Assembly: GCF_001660705.2 (NCBI RefSeq)
Contig: NZ_LYBV02000041.1
Span: 1 to 64,000, forward strand
DNA from: Saccharicrinis aurantiacus
Lineage (GTDB): Bacteria > Bacteroidota > Bacteroidia > Bacteroidales > Marinilabiliaceae
Direction of reading: 5' to 3'
DNA length: 64,000 nt
The notes beneath the pieces were generated by a model. That model saw only the letters and a program-made list of their open reading frames with translations. It was not told where the DNA came from and made no database searches. Within the stretch, counting starts at the first letter, position 1. Every line of letters starts with the position of its first letter. This document shows positions 20,890-29,338 of the stretch, piece after piece. A program made the position numbers and the translations under genes.

Positions 20890-21798
20890 TTAATTTACAC
20901 TCCGGTATTCAGCTGGAGTAAGCCCTGTTTTCTTTTTAAATAAACGAGAAAAATATTGCGAGTATTCAAAGCCTAAATCGTAAGCAATTTCAGAAACTGT
21001 ATCGCTCGAGTTAAGTAGCTTGCTTTTTGCTTGTTCCATAACAAAGTAGTGAATGTGGTCTTGCGCATTTCTACCTGTTTCCTTTTTAAGCAAATCGCTA
21101 AGGTAATTTGCCGACATGTTTAGTTCATTGCCACAATACTTTACTGTAGGCACGCCTTGTTTTAACGCCATACCAGTATGGTAATACTTCTTTAGGAGAT
21201 GCTCAAACTTACTTACTAAATCTTTATTCAGGTTTTGGCGCGTATAAAACTGGCGGTCGTAAAAACGGGTACAGTAATCCAGTATCTGCTCAATGCTGCC
21301 AATAATTAGTTTCTGGCTGTGCTTATCAATGTTGAGGCTATATTCTTTTATTATTTTATCACGCAAGTCTGCCATGATATGTTTTTCATCTTCCGACAAA
21401 TGAAGTGCTTCGTGAACATCGTATGAAAAAAATGAATAATCATCCATATGCTCTCCGAGTGGCGATTTTCTAATAAAATCGGGATGAAACATCAAAGACC
21501 AGCCTCCGTCTGAATCGTTAAATTCCCATTCGGGTATAGATATAACCTGTCTCGGTTTAAGAAACATCATCGTTCCTTCCTGAAAATCGTATGTATTTCG
21601 CCCATAGCCAAACGAAGCGTCGCTATGCATTTTATAAATTATTAGATACATATCGGCAGCAACATTTTTCTCAATCAGTTCCTTGTTTGAATACATGTTT
21701 TCGTGATAAAAAACACTTACTAAAGGATGCTTGGGTTTGTCCAGACCCATAAATTCATGAGCCTCACTAATTGTTTTTAAACGATGTATATTTTTCAT
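20890..21798 (-). CDS. AraC-family transcriptional regulator
   Basis: The protein of about 302 residues has an N-terminal cupin-like sensing domain (MKNIHRLKTISEAHEF..., HPLVSVFYHENM, SFGYGRNTYDFQEGTMMFL, PRQVISIP). Its C-terminal AraC domain has two helix-turn-helix units; the second is VSEIAYDLGFEYSQYFSRLF, followed by KKKTGLTPAEYRSV. The start at 21798 fits the usual N terminus of this family; an in-frame ATG at 21831 would add 11 unlikely residues. It lies at the downstream end of the leftward redox cluster. It is the best local candidate to bind the paired operators at 27.1, 28.2 and 29.3 kb. Confidence 0.92.
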   Translation of the reverse strand: MKNIHRLKTISEAHEFMGLDKPKHPLVSVFYHENMYSNKELIEKNVAADMYLIIYKMHSDASFGYGRNTYDFQEGTMMFLKPRQVISIPEWEFNDSDGGWSLMFHPDFIRKSPLGEHMDDYSFFSYDVHEALHLSEDEKHIMADLRDKIIKEYSLNIDKHSQKLIIGSIEQILDYCTRFYDRQFYTRQNLNKDLVSKFEHLLKKYYHTGMALKQGVPTVKYCGNELNMSANYLSDLLKKETGRNAQDHIHYFVMEQAKSKLLNSSDTVSEIAYDLGFEYSQYFSRLFKKKTGLTPAEYRSVN

Positions 21799-22065
21799 TC
21801 GATTAGATTTAAAATTTTTAAGGTGTCTCATTGCATGCTCCGCCTTGGCGGATGAACCTGAATAGTTATAAATGCTCGTTTCATAATTTCAAATAAATAA
21901 CCATTTAAATGGAGGCTCTTTTTTTTATCTCTACAAATATAAATTTAGAAACCCAATTATATCCCAATTCAGAACAGTTAAGAAGAAAAAGGCAATTACA
22001 ACGATATTTTTTCGATGTGTTATGCATTCCCCGTAATCCTTTAGGCATATGCGCAGGATTTAACC

Positions 22066-22240
22066 TTAATATTTATTTGTGAAACTAAGGATAAATAAAT
22101 CAGACCCGGCATCCATCATTTCAAACAGTTCAGAAATCTCTTGAATACCCTGTGCAGATATATTCTTTGCCTTAGACTCTCAGGATGCACCTTCTGTAAA
22201 TACTACTTCCAATCCATAGGGTATTATTTCTTTTCCATTC
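22066..22240 (-). pseudogene. Possible decayed reading frame
   Basis: In one minus-strand frame the translation runs NGKEIIPYGLEVVFTEGAS, then a TGA stop, then ESKAKNISAQGIQEISEL and FEMMDAGSDLFILSFTN before a final stop at 22066. It looks protein-like but has an internal stop and no clear start. I do not recognise the family. The remaining part of 21799-22507 holds a 12-bp inverted repeat, AAGTCATAGACC (22353-22364) and GGTCTATGACTT (22416-22427), and nothing else I can name. Confidence 0.3.
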
Positions 22241-22507
22241 TTTATCTACTAATTGCCATAGGCATATTGAAGCGTTTTTATGGCTAGCCTTTCCACATTG
22301 TACCCACGTCCTTAAGTTGGAACAGCAGATCAAAGTTTTCGTTAGATAATTAAAGTCATAGACCTTGAATTCTGAAAATCGGACTTCATCATTTTATTGA
22401 ATAGGTCGTTAATGTGGTCTATGACTTATTGGAATCTTCTTAATATATTAAGTGTTTTGATATAGGACCATTCTACTCTGTATTAGAATATTTACATGCA
22501 TGTAAAC

Positions 22508-23510: not shown

Positions 23511-24422
23511 CTAGAATTTGTAGTTAAAACCAGTTAGTTTTTCCGCAACATTAAACAGCTCTTTTGCTATTGCTTTATCATAAGCATGCGGTTTAGCCTT
23601 CACCTTTCCAGGCTTACCTTTCATGTCGGCAAAACCAGTTGGCCCAAAATAATCTCCACCTTGCACGTTGTTATCCAGTGATGCCATTAACTGAGGCAAT
23701 GCTGCATTTTCGGGTTTATGCGTAACCAAAGGAAGTAGTGGGTAAAGAATGAAATAAAGTGCTTTAGGGATATGTCGTGCCAAATCGGTATTTGAGCCAC
23801 CAGGATGTGCAGCAACTGCAATAGTTTTTGAGCCCGCTGCTATAAGACGTCGATTTAGTTCCTGAGCGTGCAACAAACACGCTAATTTACTCTGACTATA
23901 AGCTCCCATTCTTGAATACGATTTTTCAGCATTCAAATTGTCAAAATCAATCTTCCCACTTTCATGAGCTTTGCTGCTAAGCATTACAATTCTTGACCCG
24001 GTGGTGGTGTTCAAAACATCTAAAAGCAAACCAGTAAGTACAAAGTGTCCAAAATAATTGGCGCCCATCTGTAATTCAAAATTGTCTTCGGTAACTGAGT
24101 AAGGAGTACTCATAACTCCTGCATTATTCATTAATATATCCTATCGCTTATGCTTAAGCAAAAAGTTATTGGCAAAAGTATGAACCGACTTTAAACTAGA
24201 TAAATCTAGTGTCATAATCTCCAGTTTTGCTTTCGGAGCTTTTTGCAAAATAGCTTGCTTCGCTTTTTCTGCTTTCTCCGCATTTCGGCACGCCATAACT
24301 ACGGTAGCATCTTTTTTAGCCAGAGCAAGTGTTGCTTCATAACCCAGGCCTGCATTTGCTCCTGTAACTATTACTGTTTTGTTGGATAAAGAACCAACAT
24401 TCTTCATTGACCAATTTTCCAT
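23511..24422 (-). pseudogene. SDR oxidoreductase interrupted by one in-frame amber codon
   Basis: The two halves are in the same frame. 24422-24144 encodes the N-terminal Rossmann part (TVIVTGANAGLGYEATLALA ... FANNFLLKHKR). A TAG codon lies at 24143-24141. DIL follows and then the second half, starting [11 protein letters not shown], with the catalytic YSQSK and an intact C terminus ending NYKF at 23511. Without the stop the product would be about 303 residues, normal for the retinol-dehydrogenase-like SDR subgroup. The expected residue at the stop is Leu ([11 protein letters not shown]), so one or two base changes explain it. The rest shows no damage, so the mutation is recent, or a sequencing error or suppression is involved. 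Confidence 0.85.
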
Positions 24423-24488
24423 CTGATTAAACTTTTTGATATTATTACCTGACTAACACAATTTTCAATTATATTACTGTGAGTGCAT

Positions 24489-24632
24489 TTAGAATACGGA
24501 ATCGATGCTTTCTTTACCACTAAAAAGTTCGTAAATGTTGCCTTTGGTATTTTCGTTCTTTCGCAGTAGGTCGACCAAAATTTTTCCAATCTGACCGCCA
24601 GCTCCAATTATTAATGTTTTATTCGTCATCAT
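24489..24632 (-). pseudogene. Truncated NAD(P)-binding protein fragment
   Basis: A 47-codon frame starts MTNKTLIIGAGGQIGKIL and continues VDLLRKNENTKG before stopping at 24489. The GAGGQIGK loop is a Rossmann NAD(P)-binding motif of the NmrA/SDR-atypical type, normally the start of a protein of 200-300 residues. Here it is cut short and followed by the broken SDR. It is probably a remnant. Confidence 0.55.
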
Positions 24633-24648
24633 TCATTAAAATTTTTGT

Positions 24649-25767
24649 TTAGCTCTGAGCTTGCATCATCTCCCTATATTCCTGCTGTTTTTCCTTGCTT
24701 AGGTTAAAGAAACACTCAATTCCGTTGGGATTAAAGCAACTGTTACACGCAATACACTTTGCTTTTGTTCCATCTCCATTCTTCCATCGTTTAACCAAAT
24801 CAGATTCCCTCACTAAAGCACGACTCATTGAGAAAGCTTCAATTTTTGTTTCCGAAAGAATGTTGTTCATTTCATCAAGATCTCTTAATCCGCCCACAAG
24901 AATTATAGGTGTATCTACTTTTTCGCTAAGCTTTTTGGCTGCATCAAGATGATAGGCTGCATATTTTTTTGACCGCGCTGAACTATGAATCCCTGCCATT
25001 GAACCACCACTAACTTCTATGGCGTCAATTCCATTTGCTGCAAGTTGCTCGCCAATTACCAGAAATTCTTTTTCGTTTAAACCTTTATTGTCCACTTCAA
25101 AATCGGTACTGCTTAGCTTTATCCACACCGGATAGTTTTTGCCACAGGTACTTTTTATTTCGCTTAAAATATCAAGTACAATTTTCATTCTACCATTTAC
25201 ATCACCGCCATACTCATCTGTACGTTGGTTGTACAAAGGGCTCATAAATTTGTTAAGCATGTAACCGTGTGCACCATGAATTTGCACGCCATCAAACCCT
25301 GCTTCTTTGGCATAGGCAGCTGCCTGTCCAAACTCTTTTACAAACTCCTGAATTTGTTCTTTCGAAAAGGCTGTGGCTTTAATACCGTTCATCGGGTCGG
25401 TATATTCAGATGGGCCATAAACAGTACCTTCCGGTTGAAAATATAACTGCGTGCTTGCATGATTAATTTGAGCTACCATTTTTGTTCCGTAGCCGTGAGC
25501 CATATCGGTTACTTTCTTAAACTCGGCTACCGTATCAGCACCTAATTCAAGTGAGTTTCCCGCGTAATGGTCCGACTTTGAAAATGCCATGTAACCCATT
25601 ATAATCGTCCCAACTTCACCTTTGCTAAGGTCTTCGTATTTATTAAATATTGCTTTATTGGGAATAAAGTTTTCTGCATTCGGGTCGTTTGTAGCCGAAC
25701 GTATAAATCTGTTTTTTACTTCGATACCACCTAGTAATGAGGTGTTAAATACTTCTTTTGCATTCAT
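24649..25767 (-). CDS. NADH:flavin oxidoreductase / Old Yellow Enzyme family
   Basis: The 372-residue TIM-barrel flavoprotein uses FMN to reduce activated C=C bonds or related electrophiles with NAD(P)H. Seen are VKNRFIRSATND (about 17-28), the substrate/FMN-binding IHGAHGYMLNKFMSP (about 174-188), NQRTDEYGG, PVWIKLSSTD, and GGLRDLDEM near the second phosphate site. A C-terminal cysteine cluster, CIACNSC...GIEC, is the type seen in this subgroup and could hold an Fe-S cluster. It lies directly downstream of the Fe-alcohol dehydrogenase and is probably expressed with it. Confidence 0.93.
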   Translation of the reverse strand: MNAKEVFNTSLLGGIEVKNRFIRSATNDPNAENFIPNKAIFNKYEDLSKGEVGTIIMGYMAFSKSDHYAGNSLELGADTVAEFKKVTDMAHGYGTKMVAQINHASTQLYFQPEGTVYGPSEYTDPMNGIKATAFSKEQIQEFVKEFGQAAAYAKEAGFDGVQIHGAHGYMLNKFMSPLYNQRTDEYGGDVNGRMKIVLDILSEIKSTCGKNYPVWIKLSSTDFEVDNKGLNEKEFLVIGEQLAANGIDAIEVSGGSMAGIHSSARSKKYAAYHLDAAKKLSEKVDTPIILVGGLRDLDEMNNILSETKIEAFSMSRALVRESDLVKRWKNGDGTKAKCIACNSCFNPNGIECFFNLSKEKQQEYREMMQAQS

Positions 25768-25781
25768 TTTATTATCTATTA

Positions 25782-25907
25782 TTATGCGAATTGTTTGTTG
25801 TCGGTAATGAACATTGCATCATTTAACTTTATACGATTGGCAAGCAGTTCAGCAACGTCGACTTCTTTCATTAAGTTGATTGTTCCACCTGAGTAAACAC
25901 AGAATGT
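25782..25907 (-). pseudogene. C-terminal remnant of an SDR, related to the 27211-28023 gene
   Basis: The minus-strand frame reads EVDVAELLANRIKLNDAMFI, then TDNKQFA and stop. It closely matches the end of the intact SDR at 27211 (GADAVELLANRRKLNDKMFI...). Only about 42 codons remain and the start is lost. It lies between the OYE and Fe-ADH genes, so a second SDR copy once stood there. Confidence 0.75.
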
Positions 25908-25924
25908 TTATTTTGAAACACCCA

Positions 25925-27073
25925 TTAATACATTTCCTTTAGTAACTCTAATGCTTCATCAACTGTGAACTTTCTAGGAGTTGCCATCAAAAGAACTTGC
26001 TCATTCATAGTAGCCTCTGCTAAAGTTTTTAAGTCATCTTTTTTAACCCCAGTTTCACTAAGCGTTGGAATATTGAGTTTTTTATTAAGTTCCTTTAACT
26101 CGTTTACTACTATTTTAGATGCTTCTTCAGCGCTTAAATTGGCAATATCTAATCCCATTACTAAACCAATCTCTTTTACTGCTTTAGCTGAGCTAACTGA
26201 GTTAAATTTTACTCCATACGGAAGTGCAATTGCATTAGCTACTCCATGCGGTATTTTATGGTATGCGCTAAATGGATGTGCAAAGGCGTGTACCAACCCA
26301 AGTCCGCCATTACCGAACGCAATTCCGGCCATCGAACTTCCCAGCATTACATTTGCTCTCGCGTCCTTATTCGCCCCATCTTCATAAACAGTTACTAAGT
26401 TTTTATATATTAACTCTATCGCTTTTAAAGCAAATTGATCAGTCAAAATATTTTTACCTAATGAAAGATAGGCTTCAATTGCATGAGTCAGCGCATCTAT
26501 TCCTGTAGATGCTGTAATGGATGCTGGTAACGAATAAGTTAATTCAGGATCTATTAAAGCTATTGCAGGTAGGGCTTGTGGTCCTCCAACAATAAATTTT
26601 CTTTTTTCTTTGGCATTAGATATTATTGAAAATGCCGTAACCTCACTACCTGTCCCTGATGTGGTTGGAATAGCAATTAAGGGTTTCGTAGGCAAAACAG
26701 GTACACTGAAGTCCTCATATTGGTTTATTGGCGATGGATTAGTCAAAAGCATGTTGACTGCTTTTGCAGTATCCATTGGACTTCCTCCTCCTATTGCAAT
26801 TATTGCGTCAACTTCAGCAACTCTACCTATCTCAGCAGCTTTCTCAACTGTAATATCTGAGGGATTTGCTTCTACACCTCCGAATTCTGTAACTTTAAGA
26901 TTCGCTCCATTCAAGTTAGTAATTATATCATCAACTATTCCGGTAGATTTGACACCCTGGTCATAAATAACAAATACCTTTTCAGCTCCTAGGCTTTTTA
27001 CTATTTCACCAATTTTTTGTGATTCACCTTCGCCGAATATAATTTGTGGTCCTATTCCAAATGTAAAATTCAT
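25925..27073 (-). CDS. Iron-containing alcohol dehydrogenase
   Basis: The protein of about 382 residues starts MNFTFGIGPQIIFGEGE; an upstream in-frame ATG at 27103 lies in the promoter and is rejected. It has the type III alcohol dehydrogenase motifs: NAD-binding GGGSPMDTAKAVN (about 92-104), PTTSGTGSEVT (about 137-147), and metal ligands in ASTGIDALTHAIEAYLS and GLVHAFAHPFSAYHKIPHG. It oxidises alcohols or reduces aldehydes such as butanal or lactaldehyde with NAD(H). It is preceded by a paired operator and -7 element at 27101-27163. Confidence 0.95.
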   Translation of the reverse strand: MNFTFGIGPQIIFGEGESQKIGEIVKSLGAEKVFVIYDQGVKSTGIVDDIITNLNGANLKVTEFGGVEANPSDITVEKAAEIGRVAEVDAIIAIGGGSPMDTAKAVNMLLTNPSPINQYEDFSVPVLPTKPLIAIPTTSGTGSEVTAFSIISNAKEKRKFIVGGPQALPAIALIDPELTYSLPASITASTGIDALTHAIEAYLSLGKNILTDQFALKAIELIYKNLVTVYEDGANKDARANVMLGSSMAGIAFGNGGLGLVHAFAHPFSAYHKIPHGVANAIALPYGVKFNSVSSAKAVKEIGLVMGLDIANLSAEEASKIVVNELKELNKKLNIPTLSETGVKKDDLKTLAEATMNEQVLLMATPRKFTVDEALELLKEMY

Positions 27074-27100: not shown

Positions 27101-27163
27101 CAAATGTAGGTAGCCCTAATAGCCTCAGTGTATACTAATTACAAAAACCTGTATACTAATTAC
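27101..27163 (-). promoter_or_regulatory. Paired operator plus -7 element before Fe-ADH
   Basis: GTATACTAATTAC occurs at 27130-27142 and 27151-27163, 21 bp apart. On the minus strand TACATTTG (27108-27101) fits the TAnnTTTG -7 consensus. The gap from the -7 element to the nearer operator is exactly 21 bp, the same as at the two other promoters of this cluster. Confidence 0.85.
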
Positions 27164-27210
27164 TAATTGTGTGATTAATCGAGGGATCCTACTTATATCT
27201 TGCTATCTAT

Positions 27211-28023
27211 TTAATAGCCAAATTGTTGTTTGATACGCGCAATAAACATCTTATCATTTAACTTTCTCCGATTGGCAAGTAATTCTACGGCATCTGCACC
27301 AGCTTCGTATCTTAAGGTGTTTGTTCCGTCGGTAACAGCCGCATAAATTTGTTTGGTTACCACAATTGGAGGTGACGAAATATTACCTACACTGTTATGA
27401 AATTTCATCAGTTTTTCTATTGCAGGCTGGTATTCTAACATGGTTTCATCGTTATTAAAATCGAAGGAACGCCCGCCAAAGTCAGTTGCAATAATACCTG
27501 GTTCAATAATTTTCACTTTAATTCCAATAGGCTCCAACTCAAAGTGTAATGATTCGGAAATACCTTCGATAGCGAATTTTGTTCCATGATAAAGCGAGCC
27601 CAATGGGAAAGTTGTTTTACCTCCAATAGATGAGATATTAATAATAACACCATCTTTGTTGGCTCTGAAATGGGGAAGAAGTGCACGGGTAACATCTAAC
27701 ACTCCAATAATATTAGTATTTAGTTGGCGAATCATTTTTTCTCTTGTGAAAGCCTCCAGCGGACCAAAAGCTCCATAACCGGCATTGTTTAGTAAAACAT
27801 CAATTTTACCAAATCTCTCAATCCCTTCTTTTACAGCATTGTCAATTGATTCCAGGTTGGTAACATCTAAGCGGGTTACCAAAGTATTTTCTAGTTTGAT
27901 AAGCTCTTCTTCCTTTTCAGGAGTTCGCATGGTTGCAATTACGTTCCATCCTTTTTTGTTGAAATACTTTGCTGTGGTTTTCCCGATTCCGGAGCTTGCA
28001 CCAGTAATTAATATTGTTTTCAT
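27211..28023 (-). CDS. Short-chain dehydrogenase/reductase (SDR)
   Basis: The 270-residue SDR has TGASSGIG (about 7-14), NNAGYGAFGPLEAF (about 84-97), and the catalytic segment ISSIGGKT...LYHGTKFAIEG. It belongs to the classical group that often acts on small carbonyls or steroids; the substrate is unknown. Its promoter region (28138-28232) is a near copy of that of the next SDR gene. The operator is unusually far from the start, 175 bp against about 57. Confidence 0.93.
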   Translation of the reverse strand: MKTILITGASSGIGKTTAKYFNKKGWNVIATMRTPEKEEELIKLENTLVTRLDVTNLESIDNAVKEGIERFGKIDVLLNNAGYGAFGPLEAFTREKMIRQLNTNIIGVLDVTRALLPHFRANKDGVIINISSIGGKTTFPLGSLYHGTKFAIEGISESLHFELEPIGIKVKIIEPGIIATDFGGRSFDFNNDETMLEYQPAIEKLMKFHNSVGNISSPPIVVTKQIYAAVTDGTNTLRYEAGADAVELLANRRKLNDKMFIARIKQQFGY

Positions 28024-28168
28024 GTTTAAATTTTTTTGATTTCTGTATGTTCAAAGTTTTGAAGACATTCAGGAACTCCCATAAATTTTAATCATTCTTC
28101 TATGTTAATTTAGAATGATAAAAATTCATGTTCGTTTCATTTTGTATTGTTTAAAAATTTAACTGATA

Positions 28169-28232
28169 CAAAAATACTGACGAAATACTTCGTGGATGTA
28201 TAGTAATTACAGGGTGTTGTATACTAATTACA
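28169..28232 (-). promoter_or_regulatory. Paired operator plus -7 element before the SDR at 27211
   Basis: GTATAGTAATTACA (28198-28211) and GTATACTAATTACA (28219-28232) are 21 bp apart. TATTTTTG on the minus strand (28176-28169) is the -7 element, again exactly 21 bp from the nearer operator. Confidence 0.85.
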
Positions 28233-28253
28233 GAATAAGGAAATCATTGCTTC

Positions 28254-28297
28254 AAAAAAAAATCACAGTAATAATAAAAGATATTACTGTGATTTTT
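28254..28297 (-). terminator. Strong terminator after the SDR at 28377
   Basis: AAAAATCACAGTAATA (28258-28273) pairs perfectly over 16 bp with 28282-28297. The minus strand continues in a run of T. It separates two operator-controlled transcription units. Confidence 0.92.
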
Positions 28298-28376
28298 GAA
28301 ATAACGTTACCTATTAAAAGATTGAATTATAAATAAGGATATAATTTTATCAGCTTCAAATTAGATAATCACTATT

Positions 28377-29246
28377 CTAATTTACTTTTGTTTCTAGTAA
28401 ATAATCCATTTTGTACGCTTGCAAGGAACCATCTTGTATTGGTTGCGTTAATTCATTAACCTTATCTGCTCCTAGTGGTAGTCCAACAGTGGTTCTTGTA
28501 GGTCTGGAGCCTTGAGGCATTTCAGCAAGTTTCAAATAAGCCTCAGCAACTAAATTAGGCTGAGGGAAACCGTCTGATTGTAATAAGGTAGCAACCCCTT
28601 CCATCATACCTCCAAAAATTGCTTGCACCTCAGAATACTCTTCTACAATTTCCGTTCTTGCTTCAGGTGAGAATGAACCAACCAAGTTTGTTCCAAATGG
28701 TCCTGGTTCAACTAAAATAGTTTCTACACCGGTAGGAGCCAATTCATATTTTAAACTTTGTGTGTAAGCCTCTATAGCAGCTTTAGATGCACCGTAAGTT
28801 GCTGCAAAAGGAGCAAATACTCTACCATAGGCAGATGTTGTATTAATGATTAGTCCCTTTCCTTCTTTACGCATATTTGGTAATACTGCTTGGGTGGTTC
28901 TAATTATACCATAATAGTTTACATTCATCAATTGATTTGCCTGATCAATGCTAAAGGCTTCTGCAATACCCATATGCATAATACCAGCATTGTTTATTAG
29001 TACATCAATTGTACCTACTTCATTAATTATGCTGTCCATTGCAACTTTTACCGACTCGTCATCTGCAACGTCGGTGTCCACCACTTTAATATTCGAAGAA
29101 TATTTTTCCAGTTCTTGTTTCTTTTCAGAATTGCGTCCTTCTGGATTTCTCATTGTTGCATAAACCTTGTAACCCTTGTCTGCAAATAGCTTTGCTGAGA
29201 GATATCCAAATCCGTTACTGCTTCCTGTGATTATTACATTTTTCAT
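28377..29246 (-). CDS. Short-chain dehydrogenase/reductase (SDR)
   Basis: The 289-residue SDR has TGSSNGFG (about 7-14), NNAGIMHMG (about 87-95) and the catalytic TTSAYGRV...TYGASKAAIEAYT. The long C-terminal part after EPGPFGTNL fits the subgroup around E. coli YbbO-like enzymes that act on aldehydes. The start codon lies 58 bp downstream of a paired operator. It heads the leftward cluster and has its own terminator. Confidence 0.92.
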   Translation of the reverse strand: MKNVIITGSSNGFGYLSAKLFADKGYKVYATMRNPEGRNSEKKQELEKYSSNIKVVDTDVADDESVKVAMDSIINEVGTIDVLINNAGIMHMGIAEAFSIDQANQLMNVNYYGIIRTTQAVLPNMRKEGKGLIINTTSAYGRVFAPFAATYGASKAAIEAYTQSLKYELAPTGVETILVEPGPFGTNLVGSFSPEARTEIVEEYSEVQAIFGGMMEGVATLLQSDGFPQPNLVAEAYLKLAEMPQGSRPTRTTVGLPLGADKVNELTQPIQDGSLQAYKMDYLLETKVN

Positions 29247-29274
29247 TTTGTATTCTTTAAAAATTTATCTGATA

Positions 29275-29338
29275 CAAAACTACAGCTAGTAGACTCCGCT
29301 ACTGTATAGCAATTACAGGATGTTGTATACTAATTACA
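29275..29338 (-). promoter_or_regulatory. Paired operator plus -7 element before the SDR at 28377
   Basis: GTATAGCAATTACA (29304-29317) and GTATACTAATTACA (29325-29338) are 21 bp apart. TAGTTTTG on the minus strand (29282-29275) is the -7 element, exactly 21 bp from the nearer operator. The rest of 29247-29673 shows no recognisable gene. Confidence 0.85.

Follow-up and report, generated by a model that had tools for sequence, protein, structure and literature searches.

A paired operator before three redox-enzyme genes of Saccharicrinis aurantiacus, predicted to be read by an AraC-family activator

The window, a 64,000-nucleotide stretch of Saccharicrinis aurantiacus contig NZ_LYBV02000041.1, carries on its minus strand an AraC-family regulator gene (20890..21831, 313 aa) and a cluster of redox-enzyme genes. 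The cluster includes an old-yellow-enzyme (OYE) family oxidoreductase (24649..25767; Pfam Oxidored_FMN), an iron-containing alcohol dehydrogenase (Fe-ADH; 25925..27073, 382 aa from the ATG at 27073; Pfam Fe-ADH and ADH_Fe_C) and two short-chain dehydrogenase/reductases, SDR 27211 (27211..28023, 270 aa) and SDR 28377 (28377..29246, 289 aa), both matching Pfam adh_short. Upstream of the Fe-ADH and of each of these two SDRs, the minus strand reads WGTAATTRSTATAC, 7 bp, WGTAATTRSTATAC, 21 bp and TAnnTTTG.

By sequence match, the predicted operator of the Fe-ADH promoter consists of a distal copy, AGTAATTAGTATAC, at 27151..27164 and a proximal copy, TGTAATTAGTATAC, at 27130..27143, followed by the -7 element TACATTTG at 27101..27108. 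At the SDR 27211 promoter, the distal copy TGTAATTAGTATAC lies at 28219..28232, the proximal copy TGTAATTACTATAC at 28198..28211 and the -7 element TATTTTTG at 28169..28176, with a leader of 145 bp from the -7 element to the ATG. The corresponding features of the SDR 28377 promoter are TGTAATTAGTATAC at 29325..29338, TGTAATTGCTATAC at 29304..29317 and TAGTTTTG at 29275..29282. The sequence GTATASYAATTACA is exact in five of the six copies, the 27151 copy having a single mismatch at the final T. All six copies are in place as the first-pass annotation had described them, namely as three direct pairs with a 21-bp step (27130/27151, 28198/28219 and 29304/29325 in window coordinates). Its second observation, a TAnnTTTG element 21 bp from the nearer copy, is exact at all three promoters. 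A scan upstream of the window AraC, the OYE and a further SDR, SDR 22508, found no comparable pair.

The pair is rare. With three or fewer mismatches it occurs at only three places in the whole genome (5,879,763 bases, 69 contigs), each preceding a gene of one cluster, and the backward control pattern has no match in the 5.88 Mb. Pairs at random positions genome-wide had been named at first pass as an outcome that would count against the reading; in the scan, only the three window promoters match. The strength of the signal lies in the pairing, since a lone copy is near chance: 47 lone copies with up to 3 mismatches fall in the window where 38.2 are expected, and 7 of 100 shuffles reach 47. 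In a sample of 393 genomes of the order, two match besides the window's own, each with 3 mismatches, against one control match. A degenerate pattern that includes the -7 element adds two 3-mismatch sites in the same genome, C15:112791 and C48:2670, which lie about 2 and 7 kb from AraC paralogues of 49% identity, each upstream of an SDR-like ORF. In the loci around these paralogues (L048 and L049, on contigs C48 and C15), the two paralogue AraCs have almost identical DNA-binding regions, and a related, CTAAAAAGTATAC-like site stands before the SDR-like ORF.

The 20890 protein has a C-terminal DNA-binding domain with two helix-turn-helices (HTH), matched by HTH_18 (75.2 bits, cutoff 33.6; 5e-21) and HTH_AraC (50 bits, cutoff 26.6; 2.9e-13). 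These two HTH families are the only Pfam matches at E-values up to 0.001, none covering the N-terminus, and no NCBIfam equivalog reaches its cutoff. The HTH segments are conserved across the 20890 clade. An AF2 model (pLDDT 81.7, pTM 0.58) consists of a strand-rich N-terminal half, a long helix and a C-terminal helical domain. In Foldseek searches with this model, the N-terminal half matches the regulatory domains of RhaR (TMt 0.70–0.73) and AraC (TMt 0.57–0.63) at 9–11% identity, which points to a cupin-like sensor and dimerisation domain as in those two proteins, and the C-terminal half matches the DNA-binding domains of YesN, SoxS and MarA. The best E-values belong to whole-chain matches with CsvR, Rns and ToxT, yet these superpose poorly (TM 0.24–0.36, rmsd about 20), so that the domain arrangement is uncertain.

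This regulator had been put forward at first pass as the candidate for the sites, a proposal strengthened by the recurrence of the sites near its homologues with the same step and gap. Homologues of 20890 were taken from 71 genomes of the family and from 50 named loci (794 kb). The named loci include Ancylomarina (78% identity), a Prolixibacteraceae MAG (66%), Carboxylicivirga, Labilibaculum, Tenacibaculum, Winogradskyella, Flagellimonas and Saprospiraceae; L120 is labelled Calditrichia, the others are Bacteroidota by name, and the homologue in L124 reaches only 38%. Around homologues and paralogues in the family genomes (40 stretches of up to 20 kb each), an uncontrolled scan with the window code found weaker copies with 4 to 9 mismatches and the same step at twelve places, seven with a gap of 21 bp to the -7 element and five with a gap of 22. 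A degenerate motif, NGTAATWnnTATAC, was set after these matches had been viewed and then applied to the 50 named loci. With gaps of 20 to 22 and up to 7 mismatches it gave 56 sites against 2 in the reversed sequence, three of the 56 being counted twice (L117 repeats L076, the loci overlapping) and dropped from the 52-site target list used below. With up to 6 mismatches, 45 sites had gap 21 and 4 had gap 22, against 0–1 at each remaining gap between 10 and 33, and 39 of the 50 loci hold a site adjoining TAnnTTTG.

The step itself is sharply defined. Without the -7 condition and with a mismatch limit on each copy, 47 pairs in 33 of the 50 loci have step 21 (one L117/L076 pair counted twice), compared with no more than 2 at each of the other steps between 14 and 44 and 1 at step 21 in the reversed control. 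The per-copy limit matters: under a looser threshold, a single conserved copy together with an AT-rich 14-mer is enough for a match, and the background is then high at many steps, with counts reaching 33 where step 21 has 54. At up to 4 mismatches and again without the -7 condition, a step-21 pair occurs in 42 of the 50 loci and also in 5 reversed loci. Eleven of the 50 have no site adjoining TAnnTTTG: pairs with 1–2 mismatches and an altered -7 element are found in L079, L090 and L106, pairs with 3–4 mismatches in L120, L089 and L084, and no pair at up to 4 mismatches in L096, L103, L111, L112 and L124. Seven named loci (L079, L081, L082, L083, L084, L088 and L122) are not independent, because they are taken to be the same contigs as family loci, and many of the others are close relatives of each other. 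Other codes with the 21/21 geometry were also sought in these loci; step 21 is raised over all gaps (49 against 19 reversed), and with 3 against 2 in the 21/21 cell itself and a microsatellite in L045 filling many cells, a general 21/21 geometry is unsupported.

Regulator and sites also co-occur across genomes. Fifteen of the 71 family genomes carry a total of 29 sites with no more than 3 mismatches, and the control pattern has no match. Among the 13 genomes with a best AraC match below 1e-90, 12 have a site, compared with 3 of the 58 others; the limit was placed, after the family matches were viewed, at a visible gap between 8.5e-94 and 1.9e-81. The p-value of 4.4e-10 overstates this linkage because the genomes are related and not independent. 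One genome (G423) has a close AraC and no site, and three have sites and no close AraC; in two of these (G394 and G395) the sites adjoin a 43% AraC homologue, and the third (G403) has two sites and, among the matches listed, no AraC match better than 8.4e-12. Sixteen family sites were fetched, 15 of them away from any AraC match among those listed. The comparison supports an association of sites and regulator within the family that extends to sites away from listed AraC matches. In a phylum sample of 296 genomes, five have sites, the window's own included, against one control match. At the same limit of 1e-90, with G469 (50%, 1.2e-90) just outside it, a site is present in 1 of 7 genomes with such an AraC match and in 3 of 288 others (p = 0.09). 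The one genome of the seven is G611 (AraC 52%), whose site lies about 1.5 kb before its AraC. Either the code does not reach so far or the 3-mismatch limit may be too strict; given this weak phylum-wide linkage, we limit the claim to closer homologues.

The genes downstream of the sites are predominantly SDRs in the named loci. By a simple motif rule, the 52 sites precede 28 SDRs, 3 NAD-epimerases, 3 Fe-ADHs, 2 AraC genes themselves and 16 other genes; L086_9054, one of the 16, reads as an SDR, and some of the 6-mismatch sites are probably due to chance. The site precedes the AraC gene itself in L095, L125 and L142. Fourteen of the 16 fetched family sites pass the site rule, L128 and L136 (CA for TA in the -7 element) failing it; seven of the 14 stand before an MBL-fold hydrolase, five before SDRs as judged by eye, one before an epimerase (Pfam Epimerase match) and one before an AraC. 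The single hydrolase tested matches Lactamase_B_2 at 1.9e-47, and the other six are alike in sequence by eye. These hydrolase sites, one in each of seven family genomes (L127, L130, L131, L132, L134, L137 and L140), lie away from listed AraC matches. Start codons mostly follow about 15–60 bp after the -7 element.

Within the window, the membership first proposed for the regulon is supported for the Fe-ADH and the two SDRs, each gene having a paired site and a -7 element. In the loci searched, nothing resembles the window Fe-ADH closely, the best homologue reaching 28%. Three Carboxylicivirga loci have operator-preceded Fe-ADHs that are 26–27% identical to it, which suggests that enzymes of this type entered the regulon on more than one occasion. 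The OYE is a possible, perhaps co-transcribed, member; in Ancylomarina its homologue (57%) starts 12 bp past the end of an operator-preceded SDR (L117, 3617 and 3629).

The Ancylomarina contig NZ_SADB01000008 (L117, L076) carries two adjacent modules, each with an OYE, an SDR like SDR 22508 and an AraC, and apparently the product of a diverged duplication. Identities to the window proteins in the first and second module are 57% and 64% for the OYE, 80% and 78% for the SDR 22508-like protein and 63% and 78% for the AraC; the two AraCs are about 10 kb apart. The first module also holds a 78% homologue of SDR 27211 with the corresponding operator pair before it, and the second an intact 82% homologue, likewise preceded by an operator, of an SDR that in the window (23511-24422) is broken by an in-frame TAG at 24141-24143. 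Alignment of window positions 24410-24720 with Ancylomarina revealed no recognisable vestigial operator before the broken SDR. The window cluster has one AraC. Further remnants are found in the window: a C-terminus resembling SDR 27211 between the Fe-ADH and the OYE (25768-25924; 49% over 45 residues, with a stop), a Rossmann-like start (NKTLIIGAGGQIGKILVDLLRK) followed by stops at 24423-24648, by eye perhaps from an epimerase or NmrA, and at 22075-22281 a remnant, 48% over 71 residues, of the 147-aa ORF that precedes the AraC in Ancylomarina L117.

This comparison bears on which protein occupies the window sites. The protein that mainly binds them could be a different clade member, either one of the 49% paralogues on C48 and C15 or a second AraC of the type found in the first Ancylomarina module, once present in the cluster and since lost, leaving its sites partly orphaned. 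The decay visible in the window cluster agrees with such a loss, as does the place of the Ancylomarina pair before the SDR 27211 homologue, which sits in the module of the 63% AraC and not of the 78% one. The paralogues have related sites before SDRs, and since the two carry 3-mismatch sites there, cross-binding is possible. However, the first box of the paralogue sites reads GCAA, TTAA or CTAA where GTAA is expected, and the comparison of window and Ancylomarina shows no trace of a second AraC. A 40-residue fragment aside, 20890 is also the only match above 49% in its genome among the matches listed; a search of the genome for a second close AraC returned just this fragment, and the 18.5 kb around it contain no operator pair with 4 or fewer mismatches. 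We consider binding by another clade member unlikely and infer that the sites belong to 20890 rather than to a paralogue. A 122-bp copy of the 3' end of the window AraC gene, 97.5% identical, lies at L126 9137-9258 (contig C20); an ORF of 2408 aa about 1 kb away resembles, by eye, a polyketide synthase.

The three redox-enzyme genes are very likely switched together by an AraC-type protein, and there is good reason to think that a dimeric activator of the 20890 clade occupies the paired copies as tandem half-sites. One monomer would sit on each 14-bp copy (core GTAAWWnnTATAC) and contact GTAA and TATAC with its two helix-turn-helices, and copies two helical turns apart would place both monomers on one DNA face. 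With the -7 box placed at -12 to -5 (PMC9723704), the distal copy covers -68 to -55 and the proximal copy -47 to -34. The nearer copy thus ends at -34, in agreement with the position over the -33 region claimed at first pass, and would occupy the place of the TTTG that the B. fragilis promoter consensus has at around -33 (PMC7366714). TTTG is absent from the -33 region in 68 of the 71 distinct sites, a raw count taken without a background rate. An operator overlapping or abutting the upstream core element at a fixed spacing, here a gap of 21 or 22 bp, is consistent with class II activation; AraC-family class II activators bind sites that overlap core promoter elements (PMC8811837). Since the promoters have a good -7 element (TAnnTTTG) and no TTTG at -33, the bound protein would most likely recruit RNA polymerase by a class II contact. 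Once an inducer is sensed, the Fe-ADH and the two SDRs would be transcribed more strongly; the enzymes themselves prompt the guess that the inducer is perhaps a reactive aldehyde, ketone or lipid-derived carbonyl.

The same position could serve a repressor. Bound at about -68 to -34, with the nearer copy touching the -33 region, the regulator would block RNA polymerase. However, the rigid gap of 21 or 22 bp fits a contact with polymerase, and the lack of a -33 TTTG in nearly all sites is what activator-dependent promoters would have. The latter argues weakly against repression, because in Flavobacterium johnsoniae no -33 motif was identifiable at all, according to PMC7366714. Repression therefore appears improbable, and class II activation by a dimer is the likeliest mechanism, given the site position, the missing -33 TTTG, the class II precedent and the domains seen with AF2 and Foldseek.

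The 28198 and 29304 promoters have a near-identical leader after the -7 element (GTATCAGnTAAATTTTTAAAnAATACAAAATGAAA), so that one probably arose by duplication of the other. That a single promoter merely spread by duplication, without regulatory meaning, is nevertheless hardly credible, as other families of the phylum carry this code, in the same geometry, upstream of different genes, and the Fe-ADH promoter resembles the other two mainly in the sites and the -7 element, less around them.

The proposed mechanism, activation by an AraC-family protein, has well-known counterparts and would here act at a promoter of the Bacteroidota type. The araI1 and araI2 half-sites of E. coli are direct repeats 21 bp apart, and araI2 overlaps the -35 element. 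The window sites resemble this arrangement at araBAD, where two half-sites for AraC lie beside RNA polymerase at an induced promoter (PMC6018408), and the DNA-binding domain of 20890 is related by sequence to that of E. coli AraC (2k9s_A, E 5.2e-05). Unlike the E. coli system, the half-sites have another sequence and the promoter is of the Bacteroidota -7 type; against the arabinose AraC equivalog NF007860, 20890 scores 44.9 bits where the cutoff is 208. E. coli YqhC with its targets YqhD/dkgA offers a second comparison, YqhD being an enzyme of the Fe-ADH family. The YqhC N-terminus is described as AraC-N type, whereas 20890 has no Pfam match there; the best NCBIfam models for the window Fe-ADH are ErcA and lactaldehyde reductase, and it falls below both cutoffs. 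With the class II activators RamA, MarA and SoxS, 20890 shares an AraC-family DNA-binding domain with two HTHs. RamA is a monomer of about 110 residues (PMC8811837), whereas 20890 has an additional N-terminal domain, a long helix and paired sites. A search of the open-licence literature found no described operator for this AraC clade and no paper on its regulon, which is not proof of absence.

On a wider reading, whose chances we judge to be evenly balanced, the sites would mark the regulon of one AraC clade across Bacteroidales and Flavobacteriaceae, with weaker sites in Saprospiraceae. Two GTAAWWnnTATAC boxes with a 21-bp step and a 21- or 22-bp gap would replace the -33 element and drive SDRs, Fe-ADHs, NAD-epimerases, an MBL-fold hydrolase and at times the regulator's own gene, perhaps as a response to carbonyls or lipid electrophiles that recruits different enzymes. 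A conserved operator of exact spacing would make the regulon predictable from genome sequence in relatives of S. aurantiacus and would give a concrete class II geometry for the -33/-7 promoters of the phylum. Through it, an MBL-fold hydrolase and a number of uncharacterised SDRs and Fe-ADHs would be linked as parts of a single response.
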